A DNA stretch of 64,000 nucleotides from Dietzia lutea (GTDB taxonomy: Bacteria; Actinomycetota; Actinomycetes; Mycobacteriales; Mycobacteriaceae). The notes beneath the pieces are model-generated. The model was not told the DNA's origin. It was given only the letters and a program-made list of their open reading frames with translations, and did not search any database. Numbering within the stretch: position 1 is the stretch's first letter; every line of letters begins with the position of its first letter. The stretch is taken from positions 620,001 through 684,000 of the forward strand of contig NZ_CP015449.1 in the NCBI RefSeq assembly GCF_003096075.1, in the 5' to 3' direction. Positions 14,047-51,921 of this stretch are shown piece by piece. The position numbers were made by a program, and so were the translations under genes.

Positions 14047-14052
14047 GATTGT

Positions 14053-25075: not shown

Positions 25076-25100
25076 GGGGATCCTCTCCTCGCTCGTGACG

Positions 25101-30534: not shown

Positions 30535-30549
30535 CCGTCGGTGGGCCGG

Positions 30550-32196: not shown

Positions 32197-32268
32197 CGGT
32201 CCAAGCCTAGTTCGCGCCGGTGCCGGTGGGGACTCAGGTGTGTCGGTCCGCGGGGATAAGGTGGGGCC

Positions 32269-33486
32269 ATGCCCGGGGTGTTCGAACGATTGGCCGGACA
32301 GGCCGACGTCGTGGCGGAGCTGACCGCTGCCGCCACGGCCGCCCGTGCCCGCGTCCCTGGCCAGGGGTGGGACGAGTCCGACCCCCGGATGGTCCACGCG
32401 TGGTTGTTCACCGGGCCGCCGGGCAGCGGACGCAGCGTTGCGGCCATGGCGTTCGCGGCGGCCCTGCAGTGCGAGGACCCCGACGTGGTGGGGTGCGGTC
32501 GGTGCCGCGCATGCCACACCGTCCTGGCGGGAACTCATGCGGATGTGCACCTGCTCGCCCCGCAGGGCGTGAACATCCTCCTCAAGGACGTCAAGGAGAC
32601 CATCCACCGCGCGGCCAGTCGCCCCGGGACCGGTCGGTGGCAGATCGTCGTGGTCGAGGAGGCGGACCGGCTCACAGAGCAGTCCGGCAACGCGCTGCTC
32701 AAGGTGGTGGAGGAGCCACCGAGTCGGACAGTGTTCCTGCTGTGCTCGCCGACCACCGATCCGATGGACATCATGGTCACGTTGCGCTCGCGCTCTCGGA
32801 ACGTCGCGCTGCACCAGCAGAACGCCGAGGCGGTCGAGCGGGCCCTTCTCGCCGACGGCGACGCGATCGACCCGGACCTCGCCCGGTGGGCCGCCTCGGT
32901 GTCCTCCGGACACGTGGGGCGCGCGCGGTGGCTGGCGACCGACGAGGCAACCCGCGAACGCCGGGACCTCGTCCTCCAGTTGCCGATGGTCATGCACAAC
33001 CCCGGGCGGGCCTTCCCGCTCGCGAGCCGGCTCGTCAGTTCCGCCGAGCAGGAAGCGCTGGCGCGCAACAGCGAGTCGGACGAGCGAGAGGTCGAGGAAC
33101 TGCGCACCGCCCTCGGCGCCGGCGGCACCGGTAAGGGCACCGCCTCCGCCGGCCGCGGGGCGACAGGCGCGGTCAAGGAACTCGAACGCGTGCAGAAGTC
33201 GAGGCGGACCCGCTCCACCCGGGACTCGCTGGACCTCGCCCTGGTCGACCTGGCCGGCTTCTACCGCGACGCGCTCACGGTTGCGCTCGGCGCCCGCGAC
33301 GTCGCGGCGGTCCACCCCGACAAGGCCGAAGAGGCCGCACGCCTCGGGGGGCACTACCCGGCCGCCTCGATCCTCAAGGCGATCGAGGCGGTGCAGGACT
33401 GCCGGGCCGCGATCGAGGTCAACGTCAAGCCGAAGTTCGCGGTGTCAGCGATGGTCGGCGCGATCCGCGCTGCGCTCGGCTCCTGA
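32269..33486 (+). CDS. holB: DNA polymerase III delta-prime-type subunit (clamp-loader ATPase)
   Basis: A 405-residue AAA+ clamp-loader protein of the Rv3644c type. It has FTGPPGSGRSVAAMAFA (P-loop with Lys replaced by Arg, as in many non-hydrolysing delta-prime subunits), a zinc site with Cys in CEDPDVVGCGRCRAC, IVVVEEADRLTEQSGNALLKVVEEPP, and the sensor-1 region FLLCSPTT. The C-terminal collar domain runs to the end and contains a Gly/Ala-rich insert near residues 285-302. In M. tuberculosis the gene lies between the cyclase and tRNA-Thr, as here. Confidence 0.9.
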   Translation: MPGVFERLAGQADVVAELTAAATAARARVPGQGWDESDPRMVHAWLFTGPPGSGRSVAAMAFAAALQCEDPDVVGCGRCRACHTVLAGTHADVHLLAPQGVNILLKDVKETIHRAASRPGTGRWQIVVVEEADRLTEQSGNALLKVVEEPPSRTVFLLCSPTTDPMDIMVTLRSRSRNVALHQQNAEAVERALLADGDAIDPDLARWAASVSSGHVGRARWLATDEATRERRDLVLQLPMVMHNPGRAFPLASRLVSSAEQEALARNSESDEREVEELRTALGAGGTGKGTASAGRGATGAVKELERVQKSRRTRSTRDSLDLALVDLAGFYRDALTVALGARDVAAVHPDKAEEAARLGGHYPAASILKAIEAVQDCRAAIEVNVKPKFAVSAMVGAIRAALGS

Positions 33487-33568
33487 CCGCCGGGGCGGAG
33501 TCGTCCGGCGCGAGCGCCGTATGGGGCGCTCCGGTGCAGGCCGTTTTTCGGCTCGGGGGTCCGTCGGA

Positions 33569-33595: not shown

Positions 33596-33668
33596 GCCGC
33601 GTTAGCTCAGTCGGTAGAGCATTTCACTCGTAATGAAAAGGTCGTCGGTTCGATTCCGACACGCGGCT
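33596..33668 (+). tRNA. tRNA-Thr (anticodon CGT)
   Basis: A complete cloverleaf of 73 nt. The acceptor stem is GCCGCGT (33596-33602) with ACGCGGC (33661-33667) and discriminator T. The D arm is AGCTCAGTCGGTAGAGC. The anticodon arm is TTTCA-CTCGTAA-TGAAA, and the T arm is GTCGG-TTCGATT-CCGAC. The anticodon CGT reads ACG (Thr). CCA is not encoded. It follows holB as in M. tuberculosis and marks the left border of the catabolic block. Confidence 0.97.
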
Positions 33669-33675
33669 CTACAGG

Positions 33676-33712
33676 AAGCCCCTGTCTCACTCAATGAGAC
33701 AGGGGCTTTTTC
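33676..33712 (+). terminator. Rho-independent terminator of tRNA-Thr
   Basis: AAGCCCCTGTCTCA (33676-33689) pairs perfectly with TGAGACAGGGGCTT (33695-33708) around a CTCAA loop, followed by TTT and CTT. This is the only hairpin in the window with a true T tract. Confidence 0.92.
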
Positions 33713-33753
33713 TTGTGCAGATGTGTCTCCTGCCTGGTATTTCGCCTCTTCCG

Positions 33754-33783
33754 TTGACAGTGACTCATGTCACTAAGTAGCCT
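33754..33783 (+). promoter_or_regulatory. Promoter of the TRAP transporter operon
   Basis: A consensus -35 TTGACA (33754-33759) is followed after 18 bp by TAGCCT (33778-33783) as -10. It lies 53-82 bp before the dctP start codon. Its spacer contains the palindrome at 33759-33774. Confidence 0.65.
33759..33774. promoter_or_regulatory. CRP-like or other dyad operator in the TRAP promoter
   Basis: AGTGACTCATGTCACT is a perfect dyad. It equals the CRP/GlxR consensus TGTGAN6TCACA at all positions except the two outermost. It fills the spacer between the -35 and -10 boxes, so a bound protein would block RNA polymerase. The neighbouring IclR protein is an alternative binder. Confidence 0.6.
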
Positions 33784-33835
33784 CGGGCCAGACCGGTACG
33801 TATATACATAGCCCGTTCCCTAAGTAAGGAATTTC

Positions 33836-34987
33836 ATGGCTACCTTTTCCTGGCCTGGCACGGCCCGCCCCCGCTCGAGCGGACCGCCTCCGCGGGCGGA
33901 GTCGAAGCGCAGACGCACTGTGTCCAGAGTCTCTGGTGCCGCCGTTACCGGCCTCGCGATCGCCCTGGTGGCCGGATGTGCGGGTTCGTCGACCGAAAGC
34001 GCTGATCTGACCGAGGTGCGGATCGGCGACAGCTTTGCCGCGACCCACCCCATCGGGCGCAGTGGCACTGCCGCGTTCATGGAGGTCCTCGAGAGCAAGG
34101 GGCCGGACGCAGGAATGGACATCGAGTACTACGCGTCGGGCCAGCTCGGTAAGCAGCGAGACATGCCGGCGGTGCTACGGACTGGGATCGCCCAGATCGC
34201 CGCTGTGTCGCCCGCCTATGTCGGAACCCAGCTCCCGATGTCGAACGTCGGGGATCTCCCCGGCTTCACTCAGGACCCGTGCGTGGGCGGGGACGCGATG
34301 CTCGAGATCATGCAGCCGGGGACCACGCTGTTTGAAGCGGAGCTCGCGCCGCAGGATGTCAGGCCGCTCTGGGTGGCGTACATCCCCGGTTACGAGGCGA
34401 TGTCCGGGGCGTTCCCGGTCGACTCGGTGAAGGCCCTGCAAGGCAAGATCATGCGATCGACCGGAGGCGCCGCAGACCGGGTCGTGGACCAGGCCGGGGC
34501 CGCGGGCGTCTCCATGCCGCTAGGTGACATGTACGAGGCCATCTCGCGCGGAACCGTCGAAGGGACCCTCGCCAGCCCGATCAGCATCACTCCGTACAGC
34601 CTCGAGGAAGTGATCTCCTACTCCACGGACGGCGCCCGTCTCGGCTCGTTCACGGTCACCTACTCGGTCTCCAACTCGGTCTGGAACGAGATGACCCCGG
34701 ATCAGCAGGCGGTTCTCGCGGAGGCCTCCGAACTCGCCCAGGTGGAGGTGTGCGAAGAACTCACGCGGTCGATGGACGAGTCCAAACAGGCAATGCGCGA
34801 TGCGGGAGTCCAGATGGTGGCGGTCACCGACGCGCAGCGTCCCGAGTGGGAGGCGCTCGCCGCACCGGTCCGAGAGGCGTGGGTGGACGATCTCGAAAGT
34901 ATCGGGCTCCCAGCCCAGCAAGTTCTGGACGACTTCACCGCAGCGCTCGCACGCGCTGAGTCCGAGCACGGGGGAGAACGATCATGA
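33836..34987 (+). CDS. dctP: TRAP transporter substrate-binding lipoprotein DctP
   Basis: A 383-residue extracytoplasmic solute receptor. A long basic N-terminus (residues 1-32) is followed by a lipoprotein signal with lipobox LVAGC, Cys near residue 45. The DctP fold shows EVRIGDSFAATHPIGRSG, YYASGQLGKQRDMPAVLRTGIAQIA, VDSVKALQGKIMRSTGG and the specificity-helix region AISRGTVEGTLASPISI. The ligand is unknown; TRAP receptors usually bind carboxylates through a conserved Arg, here probably Arg in KIMRSTGG. AAGGAA stands 4 bp before ATG 33836. It is the first gene of dctPQM, overlapping dctQ by 4 bp. Confidence 0.92.
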   Translation: MATFSWPGTARPRSSGPPPRAESKRRRTVSRVSGAAVTGLAIALVAGCAGSSTESADLTEVRIGDSFAATHPIGRSGTAAFMEVLESKGPDAGMDIEYYASGQLGKQRDMPAVLRTGIAQIAAVSPAYVGTQLPMSNVGDLPGFTQDPCVGGDAMLEIMQPGTTLFEAELAPQDVRPLWVAYIPGYEAMSGAFPVDSVKALQGKIMRSTGGAADRVVDQAGAAGVSMPLGDMYEAISRGTVEGTLASPISITPYSLEEVISYSTDGARLGSFTVTYSVSNSVWNEMTPDQQAVLAEASELAQVEVCEELTRSMDESKQAMRDAGVQMVAVTDAQRPEWEALAAPVREAWVDDLESIGLPAQQVLDDFTAALARAESEHGGERS

Positions 34988-35616
34988 GCAACAACGTTCC
35001 CGAGGTGATCGTCCCGCGGCAGGGTTCAACTCCGGCGGTCCGGACGCCATTCGGCTACATCACCGAAGATCACTCACGACTCGACAAGTTCCAGAACGGG
35101 ATTTCCGGGGTCTGCGCCGCCATCGCGAGCGTGGCGATCGTCGCAATCGCCGCACTGACCGCCCTCGAAGTGTTCACCAGAACGGCCTTCGGCTCTCCGC
35201 TCGGATGGAACGTCGGGTTCGTCGAGCAGTACCTGATGATGGCGGTCGCGTTCTTCGGGACGGTGACCGCATACCGCGCCGGAGCGCACGTCGCGGTGGT
35301 GACGATCTTCGAGAAGATGCCGCCGGTCGTCCGAAAGCTGCTCTTGGTGTCGACCTACCTCATCGTCCTCGCGGGGCTCGTCCTGCTGACGTATTCGGGG
35401 ACGCGCGCCGCTCATTTCTCGTTCGTCACCGCCGAGATGCCTCCTCCGGGAATGGCGGAACTGCCCTGGCCCACCTGGTGGTGGAAGACGATCATCCCCA
35501 CCGCCAGCGTGCTCGGTCTGGTCGTGGTGGCGATCGATCTCTACCGCGAGATCACGGCGCCTCTGACCAGCGTGGTCACTGACTACGAGCCCGGCAACTT
35601 CCAGGAAGAAGGCTGA
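34984..35616 (+). CDS. dctQ: TRAP transporter small membrane subunit DctQ
   Basis: A 210-residue protein with four membrane spans (for example VAIVAIAALTALEVFTRT, YLMMAVAFFGTVTAYRAG, LLVSTYLIVLAGLVLLTY and TASVLGLVVVAIDLYREI) and DctQ-typical WNVGFVEQYLMM. It pairs with DctM in the membrane. It has an unusually long cytoplasmic N-terminus of about 40 residues. It starts inside the dctP stop (ATGA) and ends 1 bp before dctM. Confidence 0.9.
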   Translation: MSNNVPEVIVPRQGSTPAVRTPFGYITEDHSRLDKFQNGISGVCAAIASVAIVAIAALTALEVFTRTAFGSPLGWNVGFVEQYLMMAVAFFGTVTAYRAGAHVAVVTIFEKMPPVVRKLLLVSTYLIVLAGLVLLTYSGTRAAHFSFVTAEMPPPGMAELPWPTWWWKTIIPTASVLGLVVVAIDLYREITAPLTSVVTDYEPGNFQEEG

Positions 35617-35617
35617 T

Positions 35618-36901
35618 ATGACCGCGCTCGCCGTAGTAGTACTGCTGCTCCTTCTCATCCTTATCCGGGTGCCGGTGTCTTTCGCCATCCTGGGCGCCGG
35701 ACTGGTCGGGCTCCTGATGATCGGCGGCGGCAACGTCGTCGACGGCGTCATGCAGACCGTGCCCGCGACATCGGTGATGAGCTACTCGCTGTCAGCCGTG
35801 CCGCTGTTCATCCTCATGGCGCACCTGCTGATGCTCTCCGGGCTACTCGACTCCCTCTTCGACGCGGCCCGGGCGCTCGTGGGCCGCATCCGCGGCGGAA
35901 CCGCCGTGGCATCGATCGGCGCCGGAACCGCCTTCGCGTCGGTGTCCGGTTCGTCGACCGCAGCGGCTGCGACCCTGGCCCAGACCTCGACGCTCAAGAT
36001 GATCGACGAGGGGTACAGCCCCAGGACCGCGAGTGGCCTCGTCGCTGTAGTGGGAACGCTGGCCGCGATGATCCCGCCCTCGATCATTCTCGTCTTCTAT
36101 GCGATCACCGCCGAGGTGAGCGTCGGCGACCAGCTCGTCGCCGGAGCGGTGCCGGGTGTGATCATCGCCTGTGGTCTCGTGGTGATGCTCTACGTCACGA
36201 TGATGCGTAACCCAGACACGGTGCCCCGTGGCGAGCCCGCCACCTGGGGGCAGAAGGGAAGGGCGCTGCTGACCGCCGCGCCGCTGGTACTCGTTTTCGC
36301 GGCCGTGGTCGGCTCCATCTACCTCGGTCTGGCGACCCCGACCGAAGCCGCCGCGCTGGGAAGTATCGCCGCGTTGATACTGGTGATCGCTCGCAAGCGG
36401 TTCACTATGGTCGCCGTCGGGCACACGCTCGTCGAGACCACCAAGTCCACAGCGATGATCTTCGCGATCATCATCGGCGCCCATGTGTTCGGCCACTTCC
36501 TCACCGAATCCCGCGTTACGCCGAGCCTCGTAGCGTGGGTGGGTGATCTTCCGGTGCCTGCGGTCGTCATCATGGTCTTCATCGGGTCGATCTACGTGGT
36601 GCTCGGGTTCTTCATGGACCAGATCGCCATCATCGCGCTCACCGTCCCCGTAGTGCTGCCGCTCGTGGAGGCGCTCGGATACGACCCCATCTGGTTCGGC
36701 GTGTTCATGGTGCTGCTCGCAGAGGTCGGACTCGTCACGCCGCCGATGGGGCTCAACGTGTTCGTGGTGGCCCGATCCGCGGGGCAGCGGGTCGAGGAAG
36801 TGTTCCGGGGGGCGTTCCCATACGTTGTCGCCATGCTGGTGACGGCGCTTGTCTTCCTCATATTCCCGCAGGTCGTTCTGTGGGTGCCGCAATCCATGTA
36901 G
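35618..36901 (+). CDS. dctM: TRAP transporter large membrane subunit DctM
   Basis: A 427-residue protein with about 12 hydrophobic spans that forms the Na+- or H+-coupled translocation channel with DctQ. Family features include VSFAILGAGLVGLLM, GGTAVASIGAGTAFASVSGSSTAAAATLAQT, MIPPSIILVFYAI, and LLAEVGLVTPPMGLNVFVV near the C-terminus. It starts 1 bp after the dctQ stop. A 68-bp gap separates it from the crotonase, which may still be co-transcribed. Confidence 0.94.
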   Translation: MTALAVVVLLLLLILIRVPVSFAILGAGLVGLLMIGGGNVVDGVMQTVPATSVMSYSLSAVPLFILMAHLLMLSGLLDSLFDAARALVGRIRGGTAVASIGAGTAFASVSGSSTAAAATLAQTSTLKMIDEGYSPRTASGLVAVVGTLAAMIPPSIILVFYAITAEVSVGDQLVAGAVPGVIIACGLVVMLYVTMMRNPDTVPRGEPATWGQKGRALLTAAPLVLVFAAVVGSIYLGLATPTEAAALGSIAALILVIARKRFTMVAVGHTLVETTKSTAMIFAIIIGAHVFGHFLTESRVTPSLVAWVGDLPVPAVVIMVFIGSIYVVLGFFMDQIAIIALTVPVVLPLVEALGYDPIWFGVFMVLLAEVGLVTPPMGLNVFVVARSAGQRVEEVFRGAFPYVVAMLVTALVFLIFPQVVLWVPQSM

Positions 36902-36969
36902 GGCTGTAGTCGACACTCCCGGTCCCGGCCGGCCCGGCCGTGATCCTGAAAAGAAAGTTGAATTGAGAT

Positions 36970-37776
36970 ATGTCTTCCAATGATTCCGTGCTCGTCCGGC
37001 GTGACGGACACATCGAGACGTGGACCCTCAACCTCCCCGACAGTCGCAATCCAATCTCCGACGCGTCGATCGTGGAGGCGCTCTGTGCTCGCGTGGCCGC
37101 GGTTAACGCGGACCGCGAGGTCCGGGCGGTGGTGCTTACCGGGGCCGGATCGGCGTTCTCGGCCGGCGGCAACGTTAAGGACATGGTCGAACGGAACGGA
37201 ATGTTCGGTGGCAGCCCCTACGAGCTACGCGACGGATACCGCGGAGGTATCCAGCGGATCCCCCGCGCGCTATATCACTGCGAGGTGCCGGTGATCGCCG
37301 CCGTGAACGGTCCCGCGGTGGGGGCAGGATGCGACCTGGCCATGATGTGTGACCTGAGGGTCGCCTCCAGCCGCGCCTTTTTCGCCGAGAGCTTCGTTCA
37401 GCTCGGAATCATCCCGGGTGACGGAGGTGCCTGGCTGCTCACCAAAGCGATCGGCCCCATGCGGGCGGCGGAGATGGCGCTCACCGGCGACCGCGTGCCC
37501 GCAGAGAAGGCGCTGGAGTGGGGCATGGTCAACGACGTCGTGGAGCCGGAACAGCTCCTGGAGGCGGCCACCTCGCTCGCGGCGAGGGTCGCCAAGAATC
37601 CCCCCCACTCCGTCCGCATGGCCAAGAAGCTCCTTCGGGAATCGCAGCATCAGTCGCTTGAGTCCCTCCTGGAACTCTCGGCTGCGATGCAGGCCCTCGC
37701 TCATCACACGCAGGATCACCGTGAGGCCTTGGACGCGTTCATGGAGAAGCGCGCCGGTGATTACAGCGGCAACTGA
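36970..37776 (+). CDS. Crotonase-family enoyl-CoA hydratase/isomerase with altered acid residues
   Basis: A 268-residue crotonase-fold protein. The oxyanion-hole segments are GAGSAFSAGGNVKDM and NGPAVGAGCDLAMMCDLRV. Relative to rat mitochondrial hydratase, Glu144 is replaced by Asp122 (GCD) and Glu164 by Phe142 (AESFVQLG), with the 20-residue spacing kept. Classical two-Glu hydration is therefore unlikely. Isomerase, dienoyl-CoA isomerase, lyase or hydrolase activity is possible. The C-terminus (MEKRAGDYSGN) is typical. It lies between dctM and the convergent iclR gene, within the catabolic block. Confidence 0.87.
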   Translation: MSSNDSVLVRRDGHIETWTLNLPDSRNPISDASIVEALCARVAAVNADREVRAVVLTGAGSAFSAGGNVKDMVERNGMFGGSPYELRDGYRGGIQRIPRALYHCEVPVIAAVNGPAVGAGCDLAMMCDLRVASSRAFFAESFVQLGIIPGDGGAWLLTKAIGPMRAAEMALTGDRVPAEKALEWGMVNDVVEPEQLLEAATSLAARVAKNPPHSVRMAKKLLRESQHQSLESLLELSAAMQALAHHTQDHREALDAFMEKRAGDYSGN

Positions 37777-37788
37777 GCACTAGAGATT

Positions 37789-37817
37789 GGGAGGGGCGGC
37801 TGCTGGCCGCCCCTCCC
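37789..37817. terminator. Bidirectional terminator between crotonase and iclR genes
   Basis: GGGAGGGGCGGC (37789-37800), loop TGCTG and GCCGCCCCTCCC (37806-37817) form a perfect 12-bp stem between two convergent genes. There is no T run. Confidence 0.7.
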
Positions 37818-37824
37818 GTCCTTG

Positions 37825-38607
37825 TCAGCGCATCCCCCAGTCCTGCGCGTAGCGCAGGAGGATCTCGGCGAGATCGTCACTCCGCGCCGCGATCTCCTCG
37901 GCTTTTCCGATGACACCCACCGTCGCGATGGTGCGCCCCCGCTCACGCAGGGCCACCGAGACGCCGTCGCCGCCGTCCACCGCGACGCGGGGCGAGACAC
38001 AGACCCCGGTTTCGCGCAGCTCGTCGAGGGACCGCAGGAACTGCTCGACGATGTCGGCCTCGTTGGCCGGGCGGGAATTCAGGTATGCCCAGATGTCGCG
38101 TCGTTCCCGGTCGGCGAGCAGGAGCCATCCCGCAGAGGTTCGCAGCAGTGATCGGCGGAGCCTGTTCTCGGCGAGGTAGGCGTAGTGCGGATCCGTCGAG
38201 AGGTGGTCCACGTAGAACAGGTCGTCACCGACATCGGTCGATAGTGCCGTTGTCAACCCGGTTTCGGCGTGCAACGCTTCCAGCTGTTCGCGACTGACGT
38301 TGGTCACCGGAGGTCGACCCGCGATGACGTTCAGAAGATACGGGGCGGTGCCCAGCGTGTAGACGCGATCCCGTTCGTCGAGGTAACCGACGGCGACCAG
38401 GCCGTTGATCAGTCCTTGGGTGGAGCTCACCGGGGCGTCGAGGGCCTTGGCGATGGCGGTGAGGGTCAGCCCGGACCGCGAGCGGGCGACCAGCTCCATG
38501 ATGGCCGCGACGCGGTCGACCATCCTGTGCCGCGGACGCTCCGGGGCCTTCTCCACACTCAGTCGCCCGACTGGGCCGCTGCCGTCAGCTGTAGTGCGTT
38601 CCGTCAT
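37825..38607 (-). CDS. IclR-family transcriptional regulator
   Basis: A 260-residue regulator. The N-terminal winged helix contains MVDRVAAIMELVARSRSGLTLTAIAKALDAPVSSTQGLINGLVAVGYL. The C-terminal IclR effector domain spans residues 105-255 (ALHAETGLTTALSTDVGDDLFYVDHL, GWLLLADRER, SVALRERGRTIATVGVIG). IclR proteins sense small organic acids or aromatics and usually control adjacent catabolic genes. It is divergent from the acyl-CoA dehydrogenase operon and convergent with the crotonase, so it is the likely local regulator of both arms. Confidence 0.9.
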   Translation of the reverse strand: MTERTTADGSGPVGRLSVEKAPERPRHRMVDRVAAIMELVARSRSGLTLTAIAKALDAPVSSTQGLINGLVAVGYLDERDRVYTLGTAPYLLNVIAGRPPVTNVSREQLEALHAETGLTTALSTDVGDDLFYVDHLSTDPHYAYLAENRLRRSLLRTSAGWLLLADRERRDIWAYLNSRPANEADIVEQFLRSLDELRETGVCVSPRVAVDGGDGVSVALRERGRTIATVGVIGKAEEIAARSDDLAEILLRYAQDWGMR

Positions 38608-38756
38608 GGCGTAACAGTATCGGCAGCAGCGGCTCCGCGGAGCCTCATGCTCCAGCAGCTACAAAAACACGTATACGAATCCGCTATTGCGTAAAGTGGG
38701 GCCGTGTGTGACTCTAGGGTGGTGACACCGATCACCCGTTGCCCAGAGGAGGCCCC
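38608..38756. promoter_or_regulatory. Divergent iclR / acyl-CoA dehydrogenase control region
   Basis: This 149-bp AT-richer region holds a perfect 14-bp palindrome GGCTCCGCGGAGCC (38631-38644) and the 8-bp palindrome CGTATACG (38670-38677) next to CGCTATTGCG, all candidate IclR sites. Further right is the CRP-like dyad GGTGACACCGATCACC (38721-38736), matching TGTGAN6TCACA except at the outer bases. It ends 20 bp before the ATG, so bound Crp would probably repress. GATACT on the minus strand near 38617 could be the iclR -10. Confidence 0.55.
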
Positions 38757-39929
38757 ATGAGTTCGACCCTCGCACCGCCGACGACGGCGTCCACCGACGC
38801 GATGAACTCACTTCGCGCGGAGGTCCGCGCTTTCCTGGCGGAGGAGATCGCCGCCGGCCGCCTCACCCCGTGGATCGACACGTGGCTGACACGCTGGGAC
38901 GAGGACTTCACCCGCCGGCTGGCCGAACGCGGCTGGGTGGGCATCACCATCCCCACCGAATATGGCGGGCGGGGGCGAACTCACCTCGAGCGTTTCGTCG
39001 TCACCCAGGAACTCCTGTCGGTCGGGGCGCCGGTCGCGGCGCAGTGGGTCGCGGACCGACAGATCGCCCCCTCACTGCTCGCGTACGGAACCGAGGAGCA
39101 GAAGCGTGAGTACCTGCCGCGTATCGCCTCCGGGGAGTGCTGCTTCGGGATCGGGATGAGCGAGCCGGATTCCGGCTCGGACCTGGCCAGCGTCCGCACC
39201 AAGGGCGTCCGGGTGGACGGCGGCTGGTTGGTGACCGGCACCAAGGTGTGGACGTCCGGGGCCCAGCACGCGGAGGCGTTTTTCGCACTCGCGCGTACGT
39301 CACCCCTGGACACCTCCGACAGGCACGCGGGCCTGAGTCAGTTCATCGTCGACCTCCGCAGCGAGGGGGTGACCATTCGGCCGATCATCTCGCTGTCCGG
39401 GGACCATCACTTCAACGAGGTCGTCATGGAGGAGGTCTTCGTACCCGACTCCATGGTGTTCGGGACCATCGGTCGCGGTTGGGAGCAGGTGAACTCCGAG
39501 CTGGCCTTCGAGCGCAGCGGCCCCGAGCGCTTCCTCTCCTCGTTCCGGCTCTTCGCCGCCGAGATCGGCGCGATCGCCGAAGGGCGACTCGCCGAACGTA
39601 GTGACCTGGGCCGATCGGTCGCGCGGATGGCGGGTCTGCACGCGCTCAGCCAAAACGTCGCCGGTGCGCTCCAGCGCGGTGAGAAGGCGGACACGGCCGC
39701 TGCGTTGGTCAAGCTCCTCGGAACGACGACCGAGGGCGACCTGGTGGACCACGTCTCGGCCCGGGTGGGCGATGAGTTCGTGCCCGGCGACACCACCGAT
39801 GCCCCCGGCGCCGCCGAGATCCAGAGCCTGCTCCGGGCAGGCCTTCATCAACGCCCCGGCTTCACTCTCCGTGGCGGGACCAACGAGATTCTGCGCGGTG
39901 TGATCGCGCGGGGACTGGGGATGCGATGA
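38757..39929 (+). CDS. Acyl-CoA dehydrogenase, large subunit of a heteromeric pair
   Basis: A 390-residue flavoprotein. The start is ATG 38757 (AGAGGAGG 5 bp upstream). It has ERGWVGITIPTEYGGRG, CCFGIGMSEPDSGSDLASV (FAD and substrate contact), GTKVWTSGAQHAEAFFALAR, ELAFERSGPERFLSSF and the C-terminal GGTNEILRGVIARGLGM. Where SCAD/MCAD have the C-terminal catalytic Glu (YEGT), this has GGT. A Glu in the FERSGPERF helix is the likely base, as in IVD/LCAD-type and FadE29-like subunits. The stop overlaps the next dehydrogenase gene by 4 bp, so the two are made in step. The substrate is unknown. Confidence 0.9.
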   Translation: MSSTLAPPTTASTDAMNSLRAEVRAFLAEEIAAGRLTPWIDTWLTRWDEDFTRRLAERGWVGITIPTEYGGRGRTHLERFVVTQELLSVGAPVAAQWVADRQIAPSLLAYGTEEQKREYLPRIASGECCFGIGMSEPDSGSDLASVRTKGVRVDGGWLVTGTKVWTSGAQHAEAFFALARTSPLDTSDRHAGLSQFIVDLRSEGVTIRPIISLSGDHHFNEVVMEEVFVPDSMVFGTIGRGWEQVNSELAFERSGPERFLSSFRLFAAEIGAIAEGRLAERSDLGRSVARMAGLHALSQNVAGALQRGEKADTAAALVKLLGTTTEGDLVDHVSARVGDEFVPGDTTDAPGAAEIQSLLRAGLHQRPGFTLRGGTNEILRGVIARGLGMR

Positions 39930-41020
39930 CTGAGCAGCAGACGAGCACGGACAGCGTCGACCTGACCGTCGACCCGGACGTGGAAGCGATGATCGCGGAC
40001 GTTCTGGCCGGCTACTCGGGCCCTTCGGTGGAACCCGAGCACGTGGCGGTGTGGAACACCCTCAGGGAAGTGGGGCTTGCGCGGCTCACCGCGCCGGAGG
40101 AAACCGGAGGCAGCGGGGCCGGATGGGCCGAGGCCGCCGCGCTGCTCCGCGCCGCTGCTGCGGCGGGTGTCGCCGTACCCTTCGCCGAAACCGACCTGCT
40201 GGCGGGGCCGTTGCGGCGGGCGTCGGGGATCGACGACGCCACCGATGCCACGTCCACTGTCGCGGTTCTGGGGGCCGAAGGCACCGCACATTCGGTGCCC
40301 TGGGCAGGGGAGACCGACGGCGTGGTGTGTGTCCGACGGACCGCGGACGGCACCTTCGAGGTGGCTGACGCGGTGACCTCAGACCTGACGATCACCCCGG
40401 TCGAGGCGGTGTCGGCCGTCCCTCACGCGGACGTCTCAGTGGCTGGGGAACTCGACTGGCGCCCCGTGGATTCCACGGCCGTGCGGGGTCATGTCCTACG
40501 CGGTGCCCTCGTTCGCTCACTCCAGTGCGTGGGCGCGATGGAGGGGATGCTGGACCTCGCGATCGAGCACACGACCGAGCGCAACCAGTTCGGACGGTCA
40601 CTGGCCAAGTTCCAGTCCGTGCAGAACCTCGTCGTCGACCTGGCCGCGGAGACCGTGCTCGCGCGCGCGGCGGTCGACTCCGCCCTCACCGACGCGATCG
40701 CCACAAACCAGACGGGGGAACGCTCCGGGTACTCGGTTGCGGTCGCCCGCAGCGTCGTGTCCCAGGCGCTGGCCGTGACCGTGCGCAACGCGCACCAGGT
40801 CCACGGCGCGATCGGCACCACCCATGAACACACATTGCACCGGCGTACCCTCCCGGCGCTCCAGTGGAGAGGAGAGTTCGGCTCACCCTTCTTGTGGGAG
40901 ACGGCACTCACCCGATCCGCGATCGCCGGGGGGATGAGCGGCGCATGGCCGATGGTGGTCGAGGGCACCGACCTCGGGGACGTCGCCGGCACCTGGCTCG
41001 ACACCATCACCGGCCGCTGA
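39926..41020 (+). CDS. Acyl-CoA dehydrogenase, small partner subunit
   Basis: A 364-residue acyl-CoA-dehydrogenase-fold protein with a divergent, Ala-rich N-terminal half (EEVGLARLTAP-type core reads REVGLARLTAPEETGGSG). The C-terminal FAD-contact region is well kept: AIEHTTERNQFGRSLAKFQSVQNLVVDLAAE and VHGAIGTTHEHTLHRRTLPALQW. Lacking the MSEPxxGSD segment, it probably cannot act alone. Coupled pairs of this kind form alpha2-beta2 enzymes in actinomycete steroid and branched-acyl catabolism (FadE28-FadE29, ChsE4-ChsE5). Complex formation here is inferred from architecture and the ATGA overlap. Confidence 0.85.
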   Translation: MTEQQTSTDSVDLTVDPDVEAMIADVLAGYSGPSVEPEHVAVWNTLREVGLARLTAPEETGGSGAGWAEAAALLRAAAAAGVAVPFAETDLLAGPLRRASGIDDATDATSTVAVLGAEGTAHSVPWAGETDGVVCVRRTADGTFEVADAVTSDLTITPVEAVSAVPHADVSVAGELDWRPVDSTAVRGHVLRGALVRSLQCVGAMEGMLDLAIEHTTERNQFGRSLAKFQSVQNLVVDLAAETVLARAAVDSALTDAIATNQTGERSGYSVAVARSVVSQALAVTVRNAHQVHGAIGTTHEHTLHRRTLPALQWRGEFGSPFLWETALTRSAIAGGMSGAWPMVVEGTDLGDVAGTWLDTITGR

Positions 41021-41034
41021 GAATCGCGCCCGTG

Positions 41035-42321
41035 ATGACCCCTCTCGTGCGGCTGTTCATCGCAGCCGTTCTCATCAACGGCGCGTACGACGCCGTCCGG
41101 GTGGCGGTGTCTTATCGCGTCCTCGCCCTGGGCGGCGACGCCACCACCGTGGGGATCGTCGCGGGCACCTTCGCGCTCCTGCCGATGCTGCTGGCGTTGC
41201 ACTTCGGACGCCTCGTCGACCGCTCCGGTAGCCGTGGGGTCTTCTTCACCGGGATCGCGCTATCCGCGCTCGCGGTCTCCGGCGCCGCGCTCTCGCCTTC
41301 GATCTGGGTGCTAGCCGTGTCGAACACGGTCCTGGGGCTCGGCCAGATCATGACGATGATCGGCGCACAGGGTTTCGTCATGGAACTCACGGAGAGGTCC
41401 CGCCACGTCAACGGGTTCGCCGCGTTCACCCTCGCGGTGTCCCTCGGGCAGTCCGTCGGAACACCGGCCATAGGTCTCCTGCTCGGGGGCGGTGGCACGG
41501 CGGGGCCGGTAAAAACGACCTTCCCGTTGTTCGTCATGGCGGCGGTCATCGTGATCGCCCTACCGTTCGCCTTGAGCCTCCCACGCCGGGCACCGGGTGG
41601 CGGAGTGGCCCGCCCCGAGGGAGGGGCGTCCATGATCGCCCTCCTGCGGCGGCCGGGCATGATCCCAGCGATTTACGCCGCCCTGGTGGTGATCACCGGC
41701 GTCGACTTGGTGACCGCATATATGCCCGTGATCGGGGAGTCCGTGGGTCTGAGTCCGATGGTGGTGACTCTGCTCGTGGCGGTGCGCTCCGTGTTCTCGA
41801 TGATCTCGAGAGCAGCGCTGCCGTGGATTCTCCGGAAGTGGCCGCAGAGAACGATCCTCACACTCACGCCGCTGGTCACGGTTCCTGCCGCGGTGACGCT
41901 CGGCCTTGGCGAGCAGACGGTGGTGTTGGGCGTCGCGCTCGCGGTGATCGGCTTCTTCTGGGGCCTCAACCAGCCGGTGACCATGAACTGGGTGACGGCG
42001 GTGGCGCCGGCGGGGGACCGCTCGGCCGCACTGTCACTCCGGCTGACGGGAAACCGGGCGGCCCAGGTGGTCATCCCGCTCGGAGCGGGAGCGGTGGCGG
42101 CGGTAGCCGGACCGGGAAGCGTGTTCCTGCTCCTGGGCGGGGTGTCAGCCATCTCGGCCGTCTCGACGAGCGTGTCGTTGAGAAGAACCCCGATCGCTGA
42201 GCTCGAGACGGCGGCGCCTCCCTCAGCGGGTGAGCGGTCCGGGGACCCCCTGGCCACCGAACAGACCTGCCCGACGACCTCTCGGACGCGCTCGGACACA
42301 CAGAAAACGACAGGAAGTTGA
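41035..42321 (+). CDS. MFS transporter
   Basis: A 428-residue major-facilitator protein with about 12 spans. It has GRLVDRSGSRGVFF, the loop 2-3 motif (GxLaDrxGrr type), and a central loop near residues 190-205 (PRRAPGGGVARPEGG). The start is ATG 41035, or GTG 41032 one codon earlier. The last 35 residues are hydrophilic. It follows the dehydrogenase pair by 14 bp and precedes the CoA-transferase by 7 bp, so it belongs to this operon. It may export an intermediate or import a related substrate; the sequence does not say which. Confidence 0.86.
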   Translation: MTPLVRLFIAAVLINGAYDAVRVAVSYRVLALGGDATTVGIVAGTFALLPMLLALHFGRLVDRSGSRGVFFTGIALSALAVSGAALSPSIWVLAVSNTVLGLGQIMTMIGAQGFVMELTERSRHVNGFAAFTLAVSLGQSVGTPAIGLLLGGGGTAGPVKTTFPLFVMAAVIVIALPFALSLPRRAPGGGVARPEGGASMIALLRRPGMIPAIYAALVVITGVDLVTAYMPVIGESVGLSPMVVTLLVAVRSVFSMISRAALPWILRKWPQRTILTLTPLVTVPAAVTLGLGEQTVVLGVALAVIGFFWGLNQPVTMNWVTAVAPAGDRSAALSLRLTGNRAAQVVIPLGAGAVAAVAGPGSVFLLLGGVSAISAVSTSVSLRRTPIAELETAAPPSAGERSGDPLATEQTCPTTSRTRSDTQKTTGS

Positions 42322-42328
42322 GACACAG

Positions 42329-43615
42329 ATGAACACCACGAACCCCGGCTCCGGCTTCGACGACGACAACACGCTGCCCCCTCGCTCGGGCGCGCTTACC
42401 GACATCCGGGTCGTGGACCTCTCCCGTGTGCTCGCGGGACCACTGTGCGGACAGATGCTCGCGGACCACGGCGCGGACGTCATCAAGGTCGAGGCTCCCA
42501 GCGGAGACGACACGCGTAGTTGGGGCCCACCATTCGTGCGGGAGGGCCACAGCGCCTACTTCGACGGCCTCAACCGCAACAAACGGAATATCAGCATCGA
42601 TCTTCGCGAGAAGGAGGGTCAGGCCTTGCTGGGTCGAATGCTGGAAGAAGCGGACGTCGTCATCGAGAACTTCAAGGCCGGCACCCTGGAACGGTGGGGG
42701 CTGGCGGACGACGTGATCGCCGAACGGTTCCCGCGGCTCATCCACTGCCGCATCACCGGGTACGGCGTCGACGGCCCGCTGGGAGGGGCGCCGGGATACG
42801 ACGCCGTCCTGCAGGGGCTGTCCGGCCTGATGAGCATCAACGGGGTGCCTGATGGCCCTGCAATGCGGATCGGCATCCCGCTCGTGGACATCGTCACCAG
42901 CCTCAACGCCATGAACGGCATCCTCATGGCGCTCCATGTGAGAGCCGCGACCGGGCGTGGACAACTCGTCGACCTAGCACTGCTCGACAACGCCATATCG
43001 ATCCTTCACCCCCACGCGGCCAAGTGGTTCGCCACGGGCGAGCCCCCGGAACGAACTGGCGTCGCACACCCGACGATTTGCCCGTACGAGACCTTCACCT
43101 GCGCCGACGGTCCGTTCTTCATCGGTGCTGGAAACGATCGTCAATTCCGCGCGCTCGCCGTCGCGTTGGACGCACCCGCCCTCGTGGAGGATCCCAGGTT
43201 CCTCACCAACCCCGACCGACTAGCGCACGCCGAGGAGCTGAGGTCGATTCTGGGCGGCTTGGTCGGCGGGGTGACCCGTGAGGACCTCGCGGATCGCCTC
43301 CGCGCGGCGGGAGTGCCGTCCGGGGCGGTCAATCACGTCGGGGAAGCACTGTCGATGCCGCAGGTGCTGCACCGCGAGATGGTCGTCGAACGCGACGGGT
43401 ACCGCAGCATGGGTATCCCCGTGAAGCTCTCCGGGACGCCGGGGGCGGTTCGCTTCGGTCCGCGCGCCAGGGGAGCCGATACCGACTCGGTGCTGGCGGA
43501 GTTCGGCGTCGATCCGGAGCAGGCTGACGCACTGCGACGCGCGGGCGTCGTGGACTCGAGCTCGGCCGCGGAAGGTCTATCGCGCGAGGAGGCGTCGAGC
43601 AACGTCACCCACTGA
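42329..43615 (+). CDS. CaiB/BaiF family (family III) CoA-transferase
   Basis: A 428-residue enzyme. Family features are IRVVDLSRVLAGPLCGQMLADHGADVIKVE, TRSWGPPF-type loop (DDTRSWGPPFVREG), FDGLNRNKRNISIDLR, VVIENFKAGTLERWGL and YDAVLQGLSGLMSINGVPDG. GQLVDLALLDNAI carries the catalytic Asp (about residue 220) that forms the acyl anhydride. Family III enzymes transfer CoA between carboxylic acids such as formate/oxalate, carnitine and succinate with citramalate or benzylsuccinate. The start is ATG 42329 (AGGAAG 8 bp upstream). As the last gene of the operon it would activate the imported acid. The donor is unknown. Confidence 0.9.
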   Translation: MNTTNPGSGFDDDNTLPPRSGALTDIRVVDLSRVLAGPLCGQMLADHGADVIKVEAPSGDDTRSWGPPFVREGHSAYFDGLNRNKRNISIDLREKEGQALLGRMLEEADVVIENFKAGTLERWGLADDVIAERFPRLIHCRITGYGVDGPLGGAPGYDAVLQGLSGLMSINGVPDGPAMRIGIPLVDIVTSLNAMNGILMALHVRAATGRGQLVDLALLDNAISILHPHAAKWFATGEPPERTGVAHPTICPYETFTCADGPFFIGAGNDRQFRALAVALDAPALVEDPRFLTNPDRLAHAEELRSILGGLVGGVTREDLADRLRAAGVPSGAVNHVGEALSMPQVLHREMVVERDGYRSMGIPVKLSGTPGAVRFGPRARGADTDSVLAEFGVDPEQADALRRAGVVDSSSAAEGLSREEASSNVTH

Positions 43616-43630
43616 TCCGCCGTCCGCGAT

Positions 43631-43657
43631 CTCGGTACCCTCGGAACCAGTACCGAG
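43631..43657. promoter_or_regulatory. Inverted repeat between the CoA-transferase and the glycine-rich gene
   Basis: CTCGGTAC (43631-43638) and GTACCGAG (43650-43657) form perfect 8-bp arms around 11 bp. The repeat lies 16 bp after the CoA-transferase stop and 12 bp before the next start codon. It could be the terminator of the catabolic operon or an operator or leader hairpin of the downstream gene. Confidence 0.5.
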
Positions 43658-43669
43658 AAAGGTCGTGTC

Positions 43670-44557
43670 GTGGAATTCCTCCTCATCGCCGCAGTGATCG
43701 CGGTGGCCGTCGCTGTGATCTCCCGCAGCCAGAACAAGGGTCAGACGCAGCTGGAGGCGCACCACAACCGTCATCTCGAGGACTACCGCGCGGAGGCGTC
43801 CCGCTGGATCGAGCGGCTCGGCGGCCAGGTGTTCAATCTCGACGGCACGGACGAGGCGTCCAAGCAGGCGATGGCCGACGCCTCCGAGCGCTACACCGCC
43901 GCCGTCGCGGAGCTGGAGAAGGCGCGCACGCCCGTGCAGGCGCAGCTGGCCAAGGACACCGCGCTGGAGGGCCTGTACTACGTGCGCGCCGCCCGCTCGG
44001 CGATGGGCCTCGACCCCGGTCCGGAGCTGCCGCCGACTCCCGGCCAGGACCGCGCCGGCCGGGTGACCGAGGACCGCGAGGTCGAGGTCGAGGGCCGCAA
44101 GATGAAGGCCGCCACCGACCCGAGCGACGAGACTCCGCACTACTACCCGGGTGGCGTCGTGGCGGGTCGCCCGGTGCCCGCGGGCTGGTATTCGGAGCCC
44201 TGGTGGGCGTCGGCGCTGGCCACGGGCGTGTGGATGATGGGCTCGATGATGATGTTCAACATGATGTTCGCCGGCATGGCGGGCGTCGGCTACTCCGGCG
44301 AGGACTTCGAGGCCGGGGTCGGCGAGGGCGGCGAGGACGTCAGCGACCTCGGCGGGGGCGAGGGCGGTGACGGCGAGGGCTTCCTCGACGGCGGGTTGTT
44401 CGGCGGCGACGGTGGCGAGGGCGGAGACGCCGGTGGTGACGGCGGTGGCTTCTTCGACGGCGGGCTGTTCGGCGGCGACGGCGGGGGAGACGGCGGCGGC
44501 GGGTTCCTCGACGGGGGCCTGTTCGGCGGCGACGGCGGCGGCTTCTTCGACTTCTGA
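43670..44557 (+). CDS. Hypothetical membrane protein with glycine-aspartate repeat tail
   Basis: A 295-residue protein from GTG 43670 (GAGAAAGG 7 bp upstream). It has an N-terminal span (FLLIAAVIAVAVAVIS), a charged helical region (residues 25-140, probably coiled), a Met/Trp-rich hydrophobic segment (WWASALATGVWMMGSMMMFNMMFAG), and a C-terminal tail of about 85 residues with the unit FLDGGLFGGDGG or FFDGGLFGGDGG repeated three times and ending GGGFFDF. The tail is acidic, lacks Pro and is likely flexible or calcium-binding. The family is not recognised. It lies outside the catabolic operon by composition. Confidence 0.75.
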   Translation: MEFLLIAAVIAVAVAVISRSQNKGQTQLEAHHNRHLEDYRAEASRWIERLGGQVFNLDGTDEASKQAMADASERYTAAVAELEKARTPVQAQLAKDTALEGLYYVRAARSAMGLDPGPELPPTPGQDRAGRVTEDREVEVEGRKMKAATDPSDETPHYYPGGVVAGRPVPAGWYSEPWWASALATGVWMMGSMMMFNMMFAGMAGVGYSGEDFEAGVGEGGEDVSDLGGGEGGDGEGFLDGGLFGGDGGEGGDAGGDGGGFFDGGLFGGDGGGDGGGGFLDGGLFGGDGGGFFDF

Positions 44558-44628
44558 GAGGCCGGCCGGCGGCGGGTCGGTCGGTCCGGCCGCGCCCGCC
44601 GTTCAGGGCCGGTCCGCCCCGCGCCCGC

Positions 44629-45456
44629 TCAGCAGCCCGCCAGGATCCGGTCCATCGCGTCGCGCTCGGCGGCCGTCACCCACAGCCCGTAGCGCTCCTT
44701 GACCAGCACCTGCCGCGACACATACGAGCAGCGGAACTCGCGACGCGGCGGTAGCCACGTGGCGGTGTCGCCGTCGCCCTTCTGCTGATTGGCCCACCCC
44801 GCCACCGCCATGAGGTTGAGGGGGTCGTTGGCGAGATCGCGCCGCTGCTCCTCGGTGAGCTGCTGTGCGCCCTTCTGCCACGCGTCGGACAGCGCCACGA
44901 CGTGGTCGATCTGCACCTCCGAGGAGGTGTCCTGCCCGCGCGTGAACTCGATGCGTTCCCCGGTGTACGGGCCTTCGAGGACGCCGGTGAGGACCACGCA
45001 GTCGCGGGTCCCAGGCCGGAAGGTGAGGTCGGTCAGGTCCCGCTTGAGGATGTCGTTGCGGGTGTCGCAGCCGTTGTGTCCGAACTCCACGGACACGTCG
45101 TCGGTCCAGGCCTGCCCGAACAGGTCCCGGTCGTAGCCCGTCCTGGGCGCACGGCCCTTCACCTCGAGCTGCGGTAGCGCCACCTTCGCGGCGATGACCT
45201 GCGGGTCGCCCGACGGGTCCGCGGGCGGGGCGGCCGGGGGCACGGGCTCGGCCGCCCCGCCCGCGTCCGGCGCCGGGGGAGCCGGTGGGATTGACGACGA
45301 CGACGAGACGGGCCCGCCCGGATCGACCTGCGAGCTCTGGGGGGTGCCGGTCGTGCCGGGAGCGCCGTCCTCGGCCTCCGCGCACCAGCCGATCCCCGCC
45401 AGCATGGCCACACCGAGGACGACTGCACCGACTGCACGAGGGGTTCCGGAACTCAT
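44629..45456 (-). CDS. Exported HNH nuclease (GmrSD/DUF1524-type C-terminus)
   Basis: A 275-residue protein. ATG 45456 gives a signal-like N-terminus (RAVGAVVLGVAMLAGIGWCA); ATG 45486 adds 10 residues. A Pro/Ser/Ala-rich linker (residues 30-85) precedes the nuclease domain: GHNGCDTRNDILKRDL, TGERIEFTRG, VQIDHVVALSDAWQKGAQ with the His-metal core, and DPLNLMAVAGWANQQKGDGDTATWLPP. A conserved Cys pattern (GCDTR, RDCVVLTG, FRCSYVSRQ, LAGC) suggests disulfides, consistent with export. Such secreted nucleases are widespread in actinomycetes and may serve nutrient DNA use or defence. The exact substrate is unknown. Confidence 0.85.
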   Translation of the reverse strand: MSSGTPRAVGAVVLGVAMLAGIGWCAEAEDGAPGTTGTPQSSQVDPGGPVSSSSSIPPAPPAPDAGGAAEPVPPAAPPADPSGDPQVIAAKVALPQLEVKGRAPRTGYDRDLFGQAWTDDVSVEFGHNGCDTRNDILKRDLTDLTFRPGTRDCVVLTGVLEGPYTGERIEFTRGQDTSSEVQIDHVVALSDAWQKGAQQLTEEQRRDLANDPLNLMAVAGWANQQKGDGDTATWLPPRREFRCSYVSRQVLVKERYGLWVTAAERDAMDRILAGC

Positions 45457-45608
45457 GCGGGGCACCCTATCGACGCCCTCGGACATCCCAGCCCGCGGCA
45501 GGGCATCGGCACAGGCGGCTGCGCATCAGCGGGAGCGCGTGCAACCTCGCCCGAGCCTGCGCGCAACCGTCTGAATCCGCGTGTGCATCGAGCCCGCACG
45601 CCCGGCCC

Positions 45609-45730
45609 GCAGCCGCTCTCATCCCTGGCGTCTCGCTCTTGTGGATGTACGCGGAATTCGTCGTCGCTCCTCGCCATGGCGTCTGGCCTGCGCAGCGGGA
45701 CGGGCGAGACGCCATGGCGGCGCGCGGCTG
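45609..45730. repeat. Dispersed palindromic repeat, locus B (GGCGTCTCGC / GCGAGACGCC)
   Basis: The unit at 45609-45636 carries GCAGCCGCTCTCAT and GGCGTCTCGC; the following bases (GGATGTACGCGGA) also match locus A (GGATGTGCGCGGA). The inverted unit GCGAGACGCCATGG with GCGCGCGGCTG lies at 45704-45730. The arrangement matches 14179-14342, with one unit per orientation instead of two. It lies in a gap of about 360 bp (45457-45817) between divergent genes that has no other recognisable content. Confidence 0.72.
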
Positions 45731-45817
45731 TGGTCGAGGCGGCGAGTGCGGGCGTACCCGGCCGGCGCGCGGACGTCGAGGACACCGGGGGCCGGGATCC
45801 GGCTAGCCTTGCCCGCG

Positions 45818-47788: not shown

Positions 47789-47906
47789 GGTTTCACGACG
47801 CGGTGGACCATAATGGGCGGGTCGGACGGCGGGACACGAGACGAGCCCGCGGGCCGGGACGAGACGCTGACAGGGCGGGGAACGGAGGCGGGTCATCGAC
47901 ATCGCG

Positions 47907-50096: not shown

Positions 50097-50127
50097 GCTC
50101 GCGGGGAACCCCGCGGTCGTATTGTGA

Positions 50128-51126
<999 letters not shown>

Positions 51127-51136
51127 CCCCCCGGGT

Positions 51137-51910: not shown

Positions 51911-51921
51911 GGGCCCCAGTA

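Follow-up and report, generated by a model that had tools for sequence, protein, structure and literature searches.

Nine genes that directly follow a tRNA-Thr gene of Dietzia lutea raise the question of which acid they take up and how the cell breaks it down. They lie at positions 33713-43620 of a 64-kb stretch of contig NZ_CP015449.1 (hereafter the window, meaning the whole stretch) and encode a tripartite ATP-independent periplasmic (TRAP) transporter (dctPQM), a crotonase (ech), a divergently transcribed regulator (iclR), two acyl-coenzyme A (CoA) dehydrogenase subunits (acd1-acd2), a transporter of the major facilitator superfamily (MFS), and a CoA-transferase (caiB). Glutaryl-CoA is a central intermediate in the breakdown of lysine, tryptophan, and odd dicarboxylates, and glutaryl-CoA dehydrogenase (GCDH) is its standard aerobic enzyme. 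With a probability that we place near 0.6, the block serves the inducible import and catabolism of a C5-type dicarboxylate such as glutarate, and ech, acd1, and acd2 together do the job of GCDH. Dicarboxylate uptake and CoA-dependent oxidation are already known; what is new is that the place held by GCDH in relatives is taken here by a heteromeric dehydrogenase and an atypical crotonase.

An earlier note, made from the letters alone, had listed this gene set directly after the tRNA gene, and every gene it named was found there with strong family matches. The + strand carries two units, dctP-dctQ-dctM-ech (33836-37776) and acd1-acd2-mfs-caiB (38757-43615), with iclR on the - strand divergent from acd1. 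The TRAP system has the expected make-up of a separate solute-binding protein with small and large permease genes side by side. ATG starts were taken for acd1 (38757), mfs (41035), and caiB (42329), for which the family scans began at 38739, 41029, and 42326. The features are as follows.

33596..33669, + strand: tRNA-Thr (CGT), left border of the block (ARAGORN)
33836..34987, + strand: dctP, TRAP solute-binding protein (Pfam PF03480, E 6.8e-30)
34984..35616, + strand: dctQ, TRAP small permease (Pfam PF04290, E 3e-21)
35618..36901, + strand: dctM, TRAP large permease (TIGR00786, 295 bits, cut-off 268; Pfam DctM, E 3e-83)
36970..37776, + strand: ech, crotonase with D122/F142/D151/H245 (PRK09245, 424 bits, cut-off 354)
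37825..38607, - strand: iclR, regulator (Pfam HTH_IclR and IclR_C)
38757..39929, + strand: acd1, predicted large subunit, flavin adenine dinucleotide (FAD) type, of a heteromeric acyl-CoA dehydrogenase (pimC-like, 156 bits, under the cut-off of 624)
39926..41020, + strand: acd2, predicted small subunit, middle (FAD) domain not recognised by Pfam (nearest curated models IpdE2 and PimD)
41035..42321, + strand: MFS transporter (Pfam PF07690, E 6e-34)
42329..43615, + strand: caiB, family III CoA-transferase (CoA-transferase family III, E 8e-119)

The substrate class is suggested by related operons. (Comparison loci and genomes are cited by L and G numbers where needed, the window genome being G000.) When the DctP of one such locus, L171, was searched against 121 genomes of a related genus (genomes listed for this set, 2.2-3.6 Mb), 8 of them gave matches at E <= 1e-40, the query genome being one of these. 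Six of the eight carry dctPQM, an iclR whose product is 44-46% identical to that of the window, GCDH, and caiB; a seventh (G549) holds the full nine-gene block, and the eighth (G565) only the TRAP genes and a distant iclR. The dehydrogenase of L171 is a GCDH (563 bits to 3swo, 388 bits to 1siq), to which the other five are 83-92% identical, and the best model for its CaiB is the succinate--glutarate CoA-transferase, as for the window CaiB. This dctPQM-iclR-GCDH-caiB operon (L171, L177-L181) is the known pair of glutarate route genes, GCDH and caiB, joined to a TRAP transporter and an IclR regulator. It shares with the block a homologous TRAP transporter, IclR, and family III CoA-transferase, and its two control regions carry palindromes like those of the block (5/5 tested of the six loci); it differs in having one GCDH instead of acd1-acd2-ech and no match to the MFS gene. 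A pair of genomes from another family (L172 and L173) combine TRAP and IclR genes with genes for another acyl-CoA dehydrogenase and for a CaiB that is 61-62% identical.

A second context is found on Rhodococcus plasmids, where orthologous iclR, acd1, acd2, caiB, and ech lie beside genes for a Baeyer-Villiger monooxygenase, an aldehyde dehydrogenase, and hydrolases; the one monooxygenase tested (L103) scores 565 bits to 6jdk. The conversion of cyclopentanone through valerolactone to glutarate is an established route. For Rhodococcus BAA-870, the published annotation of the plasmid and of an island that it carries lists cyclopentanone monooxygenases and a 5-valerolactone hydrolase (PMC6941271), which are parts of this route to glutarate. 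That the island is the core-bearing cluster, and which monooxygenase is meant, are our presumptions.

The distribution of GCDH itself, searched with the L171 protein, provides further evidence. We define the core by an acd2 match, among the matches listed, that reaches 58% or more and spans almost the whole length. In a draw of 151 genomes of the family, 120 have GCDH (E <= 1e-110), and it occurs in 3/13 genomes with the core compared to 117/138 without it (Fisher p 7e-6, a value that ignores kinship, genomes of one genus not being independent). Among the 15 good Dietzia genomes (at least 90% complete and at most 5% contaminated, window genome included), all except G150 have an acd2 orthologue. 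In these 14 genomes acd1 always stands beside acd2, and ech is seen in 13, the 4-kb locus of G156 being too short to show it. GCDH is missing from 13 of the 14, and the only two good Dietzia genomes that have it are G150 and G000. Eight poorer Dietzia genomes gave no GCDH at E <= 1e-50 and acd2 fragments in three cases. A similar pattern is seen outside the genus: G060, taken to be Tomitella biformata, has the core and no GCDH, and its four congeners in the draw (G013, G041, G077, and G093) have GCDH and only distant acd2 matches.

The GCDH gene of the window genome lies on contig C2 (67.8 kb) with a gene for a CaiB that is 44% identical; the two make up an ordinary glutarate pair at 11924-14238 (L189 8925-11239). 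C2 is probably a plasmid contig, judging from its matches: a 19-kb stretch of it matches 17 plasmid records, 13 of them from Dietzia, with at most 15% of the query covered. The matching part is a MobF relaxase region, separate from the GCDH genes.

In six of the 15 good Dietzia genomes (G003, G115, G034, G072, G159, and G153) the trio of ech, acd1, and acd2 is present without CaiB (E <= 1e-70) and without dctM (E <= 1e-30). Such a pattern would follow if the CoA ester on which the trio acts is made inside the cell.

The genes acd1 and acd2 overlap by 4 bases, and an FAD-type middle domain is recognised in Acd1 only, as in heteromeric dehydrogenases of the FadE26/27 and Tcur3481/3483 type. The best PDB matches of Acd1 are 6wy9, 6wy8_B, and 4x28_A, the top one a heteromeric subunit at 156 bits, and among 37 matches of Acd2, 6wy8_A ranks seventh and 4x28_D eleventh. 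A two-subunit acyl-CoA dehydrogenase is therefore a well supported prediction, because in both solved complexes, 6wy8/6wy9 and 4x28, Acd1 matches one subunit and Acd2 the other. Neither protein belongs to the curated pimeloyl-CoA families, with 156 of 624 bits for Acd1 (TIGR03204) and 52 of 653 bits for Acd2 (TIGR03203); the best curated models of Acd2, IpdE2 and then PimD, both leave it far below their cut-offs. Acd1 is also no GCDH. Chains titled glutaryl-CoA dehydrogenase score at most 86 bits against it, and the NCBIfam model GlutCoADH_Des ("glutaryl-CoA dehydrogenase Acd"), which we take to represent the non-decarboxylating enzyme of anaerobes, gives it 100 of the 470 bits needed.

The crotonase is as odd as the earlier note had said. 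In Ech, the catalytic Glu pair that characterises enoyl-CoA hydratases (E144/E164 in the numbering of the rat enzyme) is replaced by D122 (E to D) and F142 (E to F). Residues D122, F142, D151, E140, R130, Q241, and H250 are invariant in 94 aligned Ech rows and H245 is His in 91 of them, a count that is partly biased because 76 of the 93 relatives came from a scan with peptide patterns spanning the D122 and F142 regions. In 20 loci fetched without such patterns, D122, E140, F142, D151, and H250 are found in 20/20 and H245 in 18/20; Gln replaces it in two Rhodococcus plasmid copies (L099 and L184). Paralogues within the same genome (e.g., L141 and L148) keep Glu/Glu at the D122 and F142 positions, and those that align at position 245 have no His there.

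A profile of 26 Ech members matched 7mcm first (titled "Enoyl-CoA hydratase"), followed by 6slb, 6sl9, 3hrx, and 6sla. The latter four, whose PDB titles read enoyl-CoA hydratase, are Thermus PaaG. The comparison chains of PaaG type also include 4fzw_C, titled 1,2-epoxyphenylacetyl-CoA isomerase. PaaG-like chains resemble Ech in having Phe at the second hydratase-Glu position and, in the loop after it, an Asp, which is Asn in 6sla, presumably a mutant built to test that Asp. They differ in carrying Ser rather than Asp at the first position; in addition, the loop Asp of Ech is shifted by one, and Ech has His245. On these residues, ordinary hydration by Ech appears unlikely, and enolate chemistry (isomerisation or decarboxylation) is its likely role.

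In the scheme that we infer from gene content, conservation, context, and residues, for substrate and CoA donor as for every catalytic step, DctPQM would bring in a small, glutarate-class dicarboxylic acid and CaiB would transfer CoA to it, probably from succinyl-CoA. Acd1/Acd2 would then oxidise the dicarboxyl-CoA at the alpha-beta position, Ech would process the resulting 2-enoyl-CoA, and IclR would govern both transcription units. The trio would thus jointly carry out the step that relatives leave to the single enzyme GCDH. The product (for glutarate, crotonyl-CoA) would pass to general beta-oxidation, which would explain why no 3-hydroxyacyl-CoA dehydrogenase or thiolase gene is present in the block. 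As far as sequence can tell, uptake, CoA loading, and heteromeric alpha-beta desaturation, all proposed in the earlier note, are borne out. The crotonase is indeed unusual, and ordinary hydration is probably not its step. For the substrate, which the note had left open, the gene context suggests a C5-type dicarboxylate. The substrate class is thus read from context, and the most daring parts of the proposal are glutarate as the acid and Ech as a decarboxylase.

A more specific version, which we put forward tentatively and hold to be rather doubtful, is that the trio constitutes a three-gene replacement for GCDH in aerobes. The heteromeric dehydrogenase would be non-decarboxylating and form glutaconyl-CoA, which soluble Ech would decarboxylate to crotonyl-CoA. 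Ech would then be a glutaconyl-CoA decarboxylase that is no sodium pump, of the PRK09245 type with D122/F142/D151/H245; the Gln at position 245 in two copies weakens this assignment. Obligate anaerobes combine a non-decarboxylating glutaryl-CoA dehydrogenase with a sodium-dependent, sodium-translocating glutaconyl-CoA decarboxylase (PMC5852087). The logic of desaturation followed by decarboxylation would be shared, whereas in the block the decarboxylase would be a soluble crotonase and the dehydrogenase a heteromeric one. Within the crotonase fold, PksI and CurF-ECH2 are described as decarboxylases of glutaconyl thioesters that use a C-terminal His, which is His230 in PksI (PMC7501309). They share with Ech the fold and the proposed loss of CO2 from a glutaconyl thioester. 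PksI His230 and Ech His245 are likened here by their place in the C-terminal region, not by structural equivalence. We dropped an equivalence of PksI Phe136 with Ech Phe142, since the spacing to the oxyanion-hole Gly is 28 in PksI compared to 23 in Ech and PksH. PksI was not among the 60 PDB chains listed as Ech matches.

Joint control of the two units is suggested by candidate sites in both control regions.

33754..33783, + strand: promoter-like region of dctP (TTGACA at 33754, TAGCCT at 33778)
33797..33810, no strand assigned: IclR-operator-like palindrome TACGTATATACATA, best site of the window with a 12-region matrix
38660..38693, no strand assigned: control region between iclR and acd1, holding the second and third best sites of that matrix (38660-38673 and 38680-38693, both IclR-operator-like)

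The 14-base matrix was built from 12 control regions of other loci, and its three best distinct sites in the 64-kb window start at 33797 (score 15.1), 38660 (10.8), and 38680 (9.6), a result favoured by the homology of the window control regions to the training regions. In all six non-training loci examined (L171, L177, L178, L180, L181, and L183; the test left out L179 and L182), the two best distinct sites fall at the dctP promoter and in the iclR-acd1 or iclR-GCDH gap. Based on these sites, co-regulation of both units by IclR is likely. A CRP/GlxR-like GTGA-N6-TCAC motif lies at 33760-33773 between the -35-like and -10-like elements of dctP and also upstream of dctP in L019, L109, and L119; this suggests catabolite control. 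A separate conserved element, TACGCAATAGCG-A (on the other strand, TATTGCGTA), occurs in the iclR-acd1 gap, at 38680-38693 in the window, and in other loci, and is distinct from the palindrome.

Several observations weigh against the assignment to a C5-type dicarboxylate and to the GCDH step. CaiB and both dehydrogenase subunits score far under all curated substrate-specific cut-offs. The best NCBIfam model for CaiB, succinate--glutarate CoA-transferase NF052585, gives 340 bits against a cut-off of 750, so that CaiB is not placed in that family (its closest PDB match is 4ed9). The model is also not specific, because it is the top one for CaiBs from other contexts (L105 and L172). The PDB matches of DctP, with 7nr2 the best, are weak. 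The L103 monooxygenase is nearest to 6jdk and to phenylacetone and cyclohexanone enzymes, with cyclopentanone not singled out. More distant acd1/acd2/ech sets adjoin a FadD-type ligase or other genes, and the wider family therefore has other substrates. A matrix trained on nine acd1 regions alone missed the dctP site and found the other element. Four genomes (G000, G116, G123, and G549) hold both the core and GCDH, and 21 of the 138 genomes without the core lack GCDH as well. If the partial acd2 of G027, a genome that also has GCDH, is counted, the table becomes 4/14 compared to 116/137 (p 2e-5, kinship again ignored). Since members of a single genus do not count as independent cases, about two events underlie the exclusion, one in Dietzia after G150 and one in T. 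biformata. Finally, acd1 of G003 (L113 8518-9698) is broken over two reading frames near codon 327; this copy may be non-working, or the break may be a sequencing error.

The best-surviving alternative is that the substrate is a dicarboxylate with a longer or a branched chain (adipate, pimelate, methylglutarate, or methylsuccinate). The trio would then perform the first beta-oxidation steps in the manner of PimCD/ThnJK, Ech would serve as isomerase or as an atypical hydratase, and the exclusion between core and GCDH would be coincidental. We regard this as possible, though on balance unlikely. Acd1 does score best with the pimeloyl-CoA dehydrogenase large-subunit model, and Acd2 with IpdE2 and then PimD, all far under cut-off. 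The coexistence of core and GCDH in four genomes is also compatible with this alternative, as is a 40% identical DctP of Citricoccus whose gene adjoins CoA ester lyase and MaoC genes rather than GCDH. A described parallel is found in tetralin degradation by Sphingopyxis granuli TFA, where thnH and thnJK encode a CaiB and large and small pimeloyl-CoA dehydrogenase-like proteins (PMC6563040). The thnHIJKL pimelate set thus resembles the block in pairing a CaiB-type CoA-transferase with two such subunits. It differs in ThnL, a fused hydratase/3-hydroxyacyl-CoA dehydrogenase, and in ThnI, an acetyl transferase, and TRAP does not appear in the text seen (PMC6563040). The thiolase and hydroxyacyl dehydrogenase genes of thn are missing from the block, which speaks against this alternative, as do the six genomes in which homologous TRAP and IclR genes adjoin GCDH and the 13 of 14 acd2-bearing good Dietzia genomes that have no GCDH.

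It is quite improbable that the substrate is a bulky cyclic or terpenoid acid, with the TRAP system carrying an alicyclic or aromatic acid. Heteromeric acyl-CoA dehydrogenases are typical of ring-bearing CoA esters, and the nearest solved ones, 6wy8/6wy9 (Tcur3481-Tcur3483) and 4x28, act on steroid side chains. Likewise, some of the top PDB matches of DctP (7nr2, 7nqg, 7nsw, and 7nrr) are TarP proteins that bind cinnamates, and Baeyer-Villiger monooxygenases accompany the core in Rhodococcus. However, no ring-opening gene was recognised within the block, the GCDH sibling operons carry the same type of regulator site, and the core trio is retained without transporter or CoA-transferase. An alicyclic or terpenoid reading drawn from the Baeyer-Villiger neighbours alone was set aside given the GCDH sibling operons.

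That the genes form a chance cluster and share no pathway is very improbable: contents do vary, six good Dietzia genomes being without transporter and CoA-transferase, and the cross-trained operator test failed, but four further genomes, belonging to three genera, keep the nine-gene order, as does a fifth whose CaiB is distant, palindromes are common to both control regions, and TRAP and CoA-transferase genes recur around more distant DctPs in the 3 plasmid records inspected out of 21 found, with an acyl-CoA dehydrogenase in two and IclR in two.

If the trio does replace GCDH, then most of Dietzia, a genus known for hydrocarbon degradation, performs the glutaryl-CoA step differently, and models that score GCDH absence as pathway loss are wrong. 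A widespread crotonase family without the hydratase residues would also gain a proposed function. Even with another dicarboxylate, the operon would supply a regulator, candidate operators, a transporter, and enzymes for a testable pathway.

The combination, which the earlier note did not recognise, proves to recur. The same nine genes in the same order are found in L019 (T. biformata), L109 (G088), L175 (G154), and L183 (G549), and L119 (G116) keeps this order too, though its CaiB is distant (33% identical); the sibling operon with GCDH adds a related form. In the literature covered (titles and abstract openings), we found no description of the nine-gene block or of GCDH replacement by such a trio. 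On the related remark that TRAP transporters are uncommon in the order, a survey found homologues of the window DctP (E <= 1e-15) in 13 of 397 genomes, window genome included, a count that covers this kind of DctP only. No named substrate emerged from that survey.

The earlier suggestion of a block inserted at the tRNA gene requires revision. Eight other Dietzia loci (L112-L118 and L176) hold the core at this very position, with the same tRNA-Thr before it and the same flank to its right; six of them have ech-acd1-acd2 alone of the nine genes and two (L112 and L115) add iclR and caiB. The trio at the tRNA-Thr site is therefore an old trait of the genus. In G150, a distant Dietzia member with a delta' protein 57% identical, a different gene occupies the site, and in G055, G088, and G154 the core is elsewhere, with no tRNA-Thr or flank gene within the stretch. 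Orthologues of dctM (at least 86%) occur in 3 of the 15 good Dietzia genomes (23 genomes searched). In a tree of joined Acd1, Acd2, and Ech, the window copy groups with Tomitella (support 0.83), outside both Dietzia groups and apart from the resident copies, which suggests that the transporter-bearing version in the window may have replaced a resident trio in place.

At 67.1%, the G+C content of the block is below that of the left flank (24000-33500, 70.0%), the right flank (43700-53700, 74.8%), and the window as a whole (71.8%); the lowest-G+C 9.9-kb stretch of the window begins at 33501 (steps of 250). As had been remarked earlier, we found neither an integrase among the nine block genes (NCBIfam and Pfam family scans) nor an attachment-site duplication, no 15-mer of 33596-33720 being repeated on either strand in 34001-48000. 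Within this scope, the block shows neither hallmark of a tRNA-integrated island, an integrase and a duplicated tRNA end. An inverted repeat with a T-run can be read downstream of tRNA-Thr. In the flank, the gene order topA - cyclase - DNA polymerase III delta' is also seen in a Tsukamurella record.

Some smaller observations concern copies of the core. Locus L108 (G055) has a partial dctM (69%) ahead of the core and no dctP or dctQ matches, and resembles a nine-gene block in decay. An ectoine link, drawn from Ehu-like ATP-binding cassette (ABC) genes by the core in G055, was rejected as substrate evidence; in G088 and G154, too, the block is bordered by ABC transporter genes, with likeness to the G055 genes shown for G088 alone. 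Two identically scoring acd2 matches, at G000:C1:3069942-3070454 and 3091372-3091884, lie ~21 kb apart on opposite strands of the window's chromosome, a possible inverted duplication. In several of the Rhodococcus chromosomal loci L022-L044, a PRK09245 crotonase gene forms a conserved cluster with another acyl-CoA dehydrogenase gene, a TetR gene, and homologues of acd1 and acd2 (62-64% and 43-50%). The L022 cluster adds a UbiB-like and a FadD-like gene, and so contains a related trio with a ligase. In nine gammaproteobacterial loci (L061, L071, L073, L074, L076, L079, L080, L083, and L088), a PRK09245 crotonase gene starts ~1.8-6.6 kb from a weak match to the window's DNA polymerase delta' protein, an arrangement like that in Dietzia, which probably reflects either chance or an old neighbourhood.

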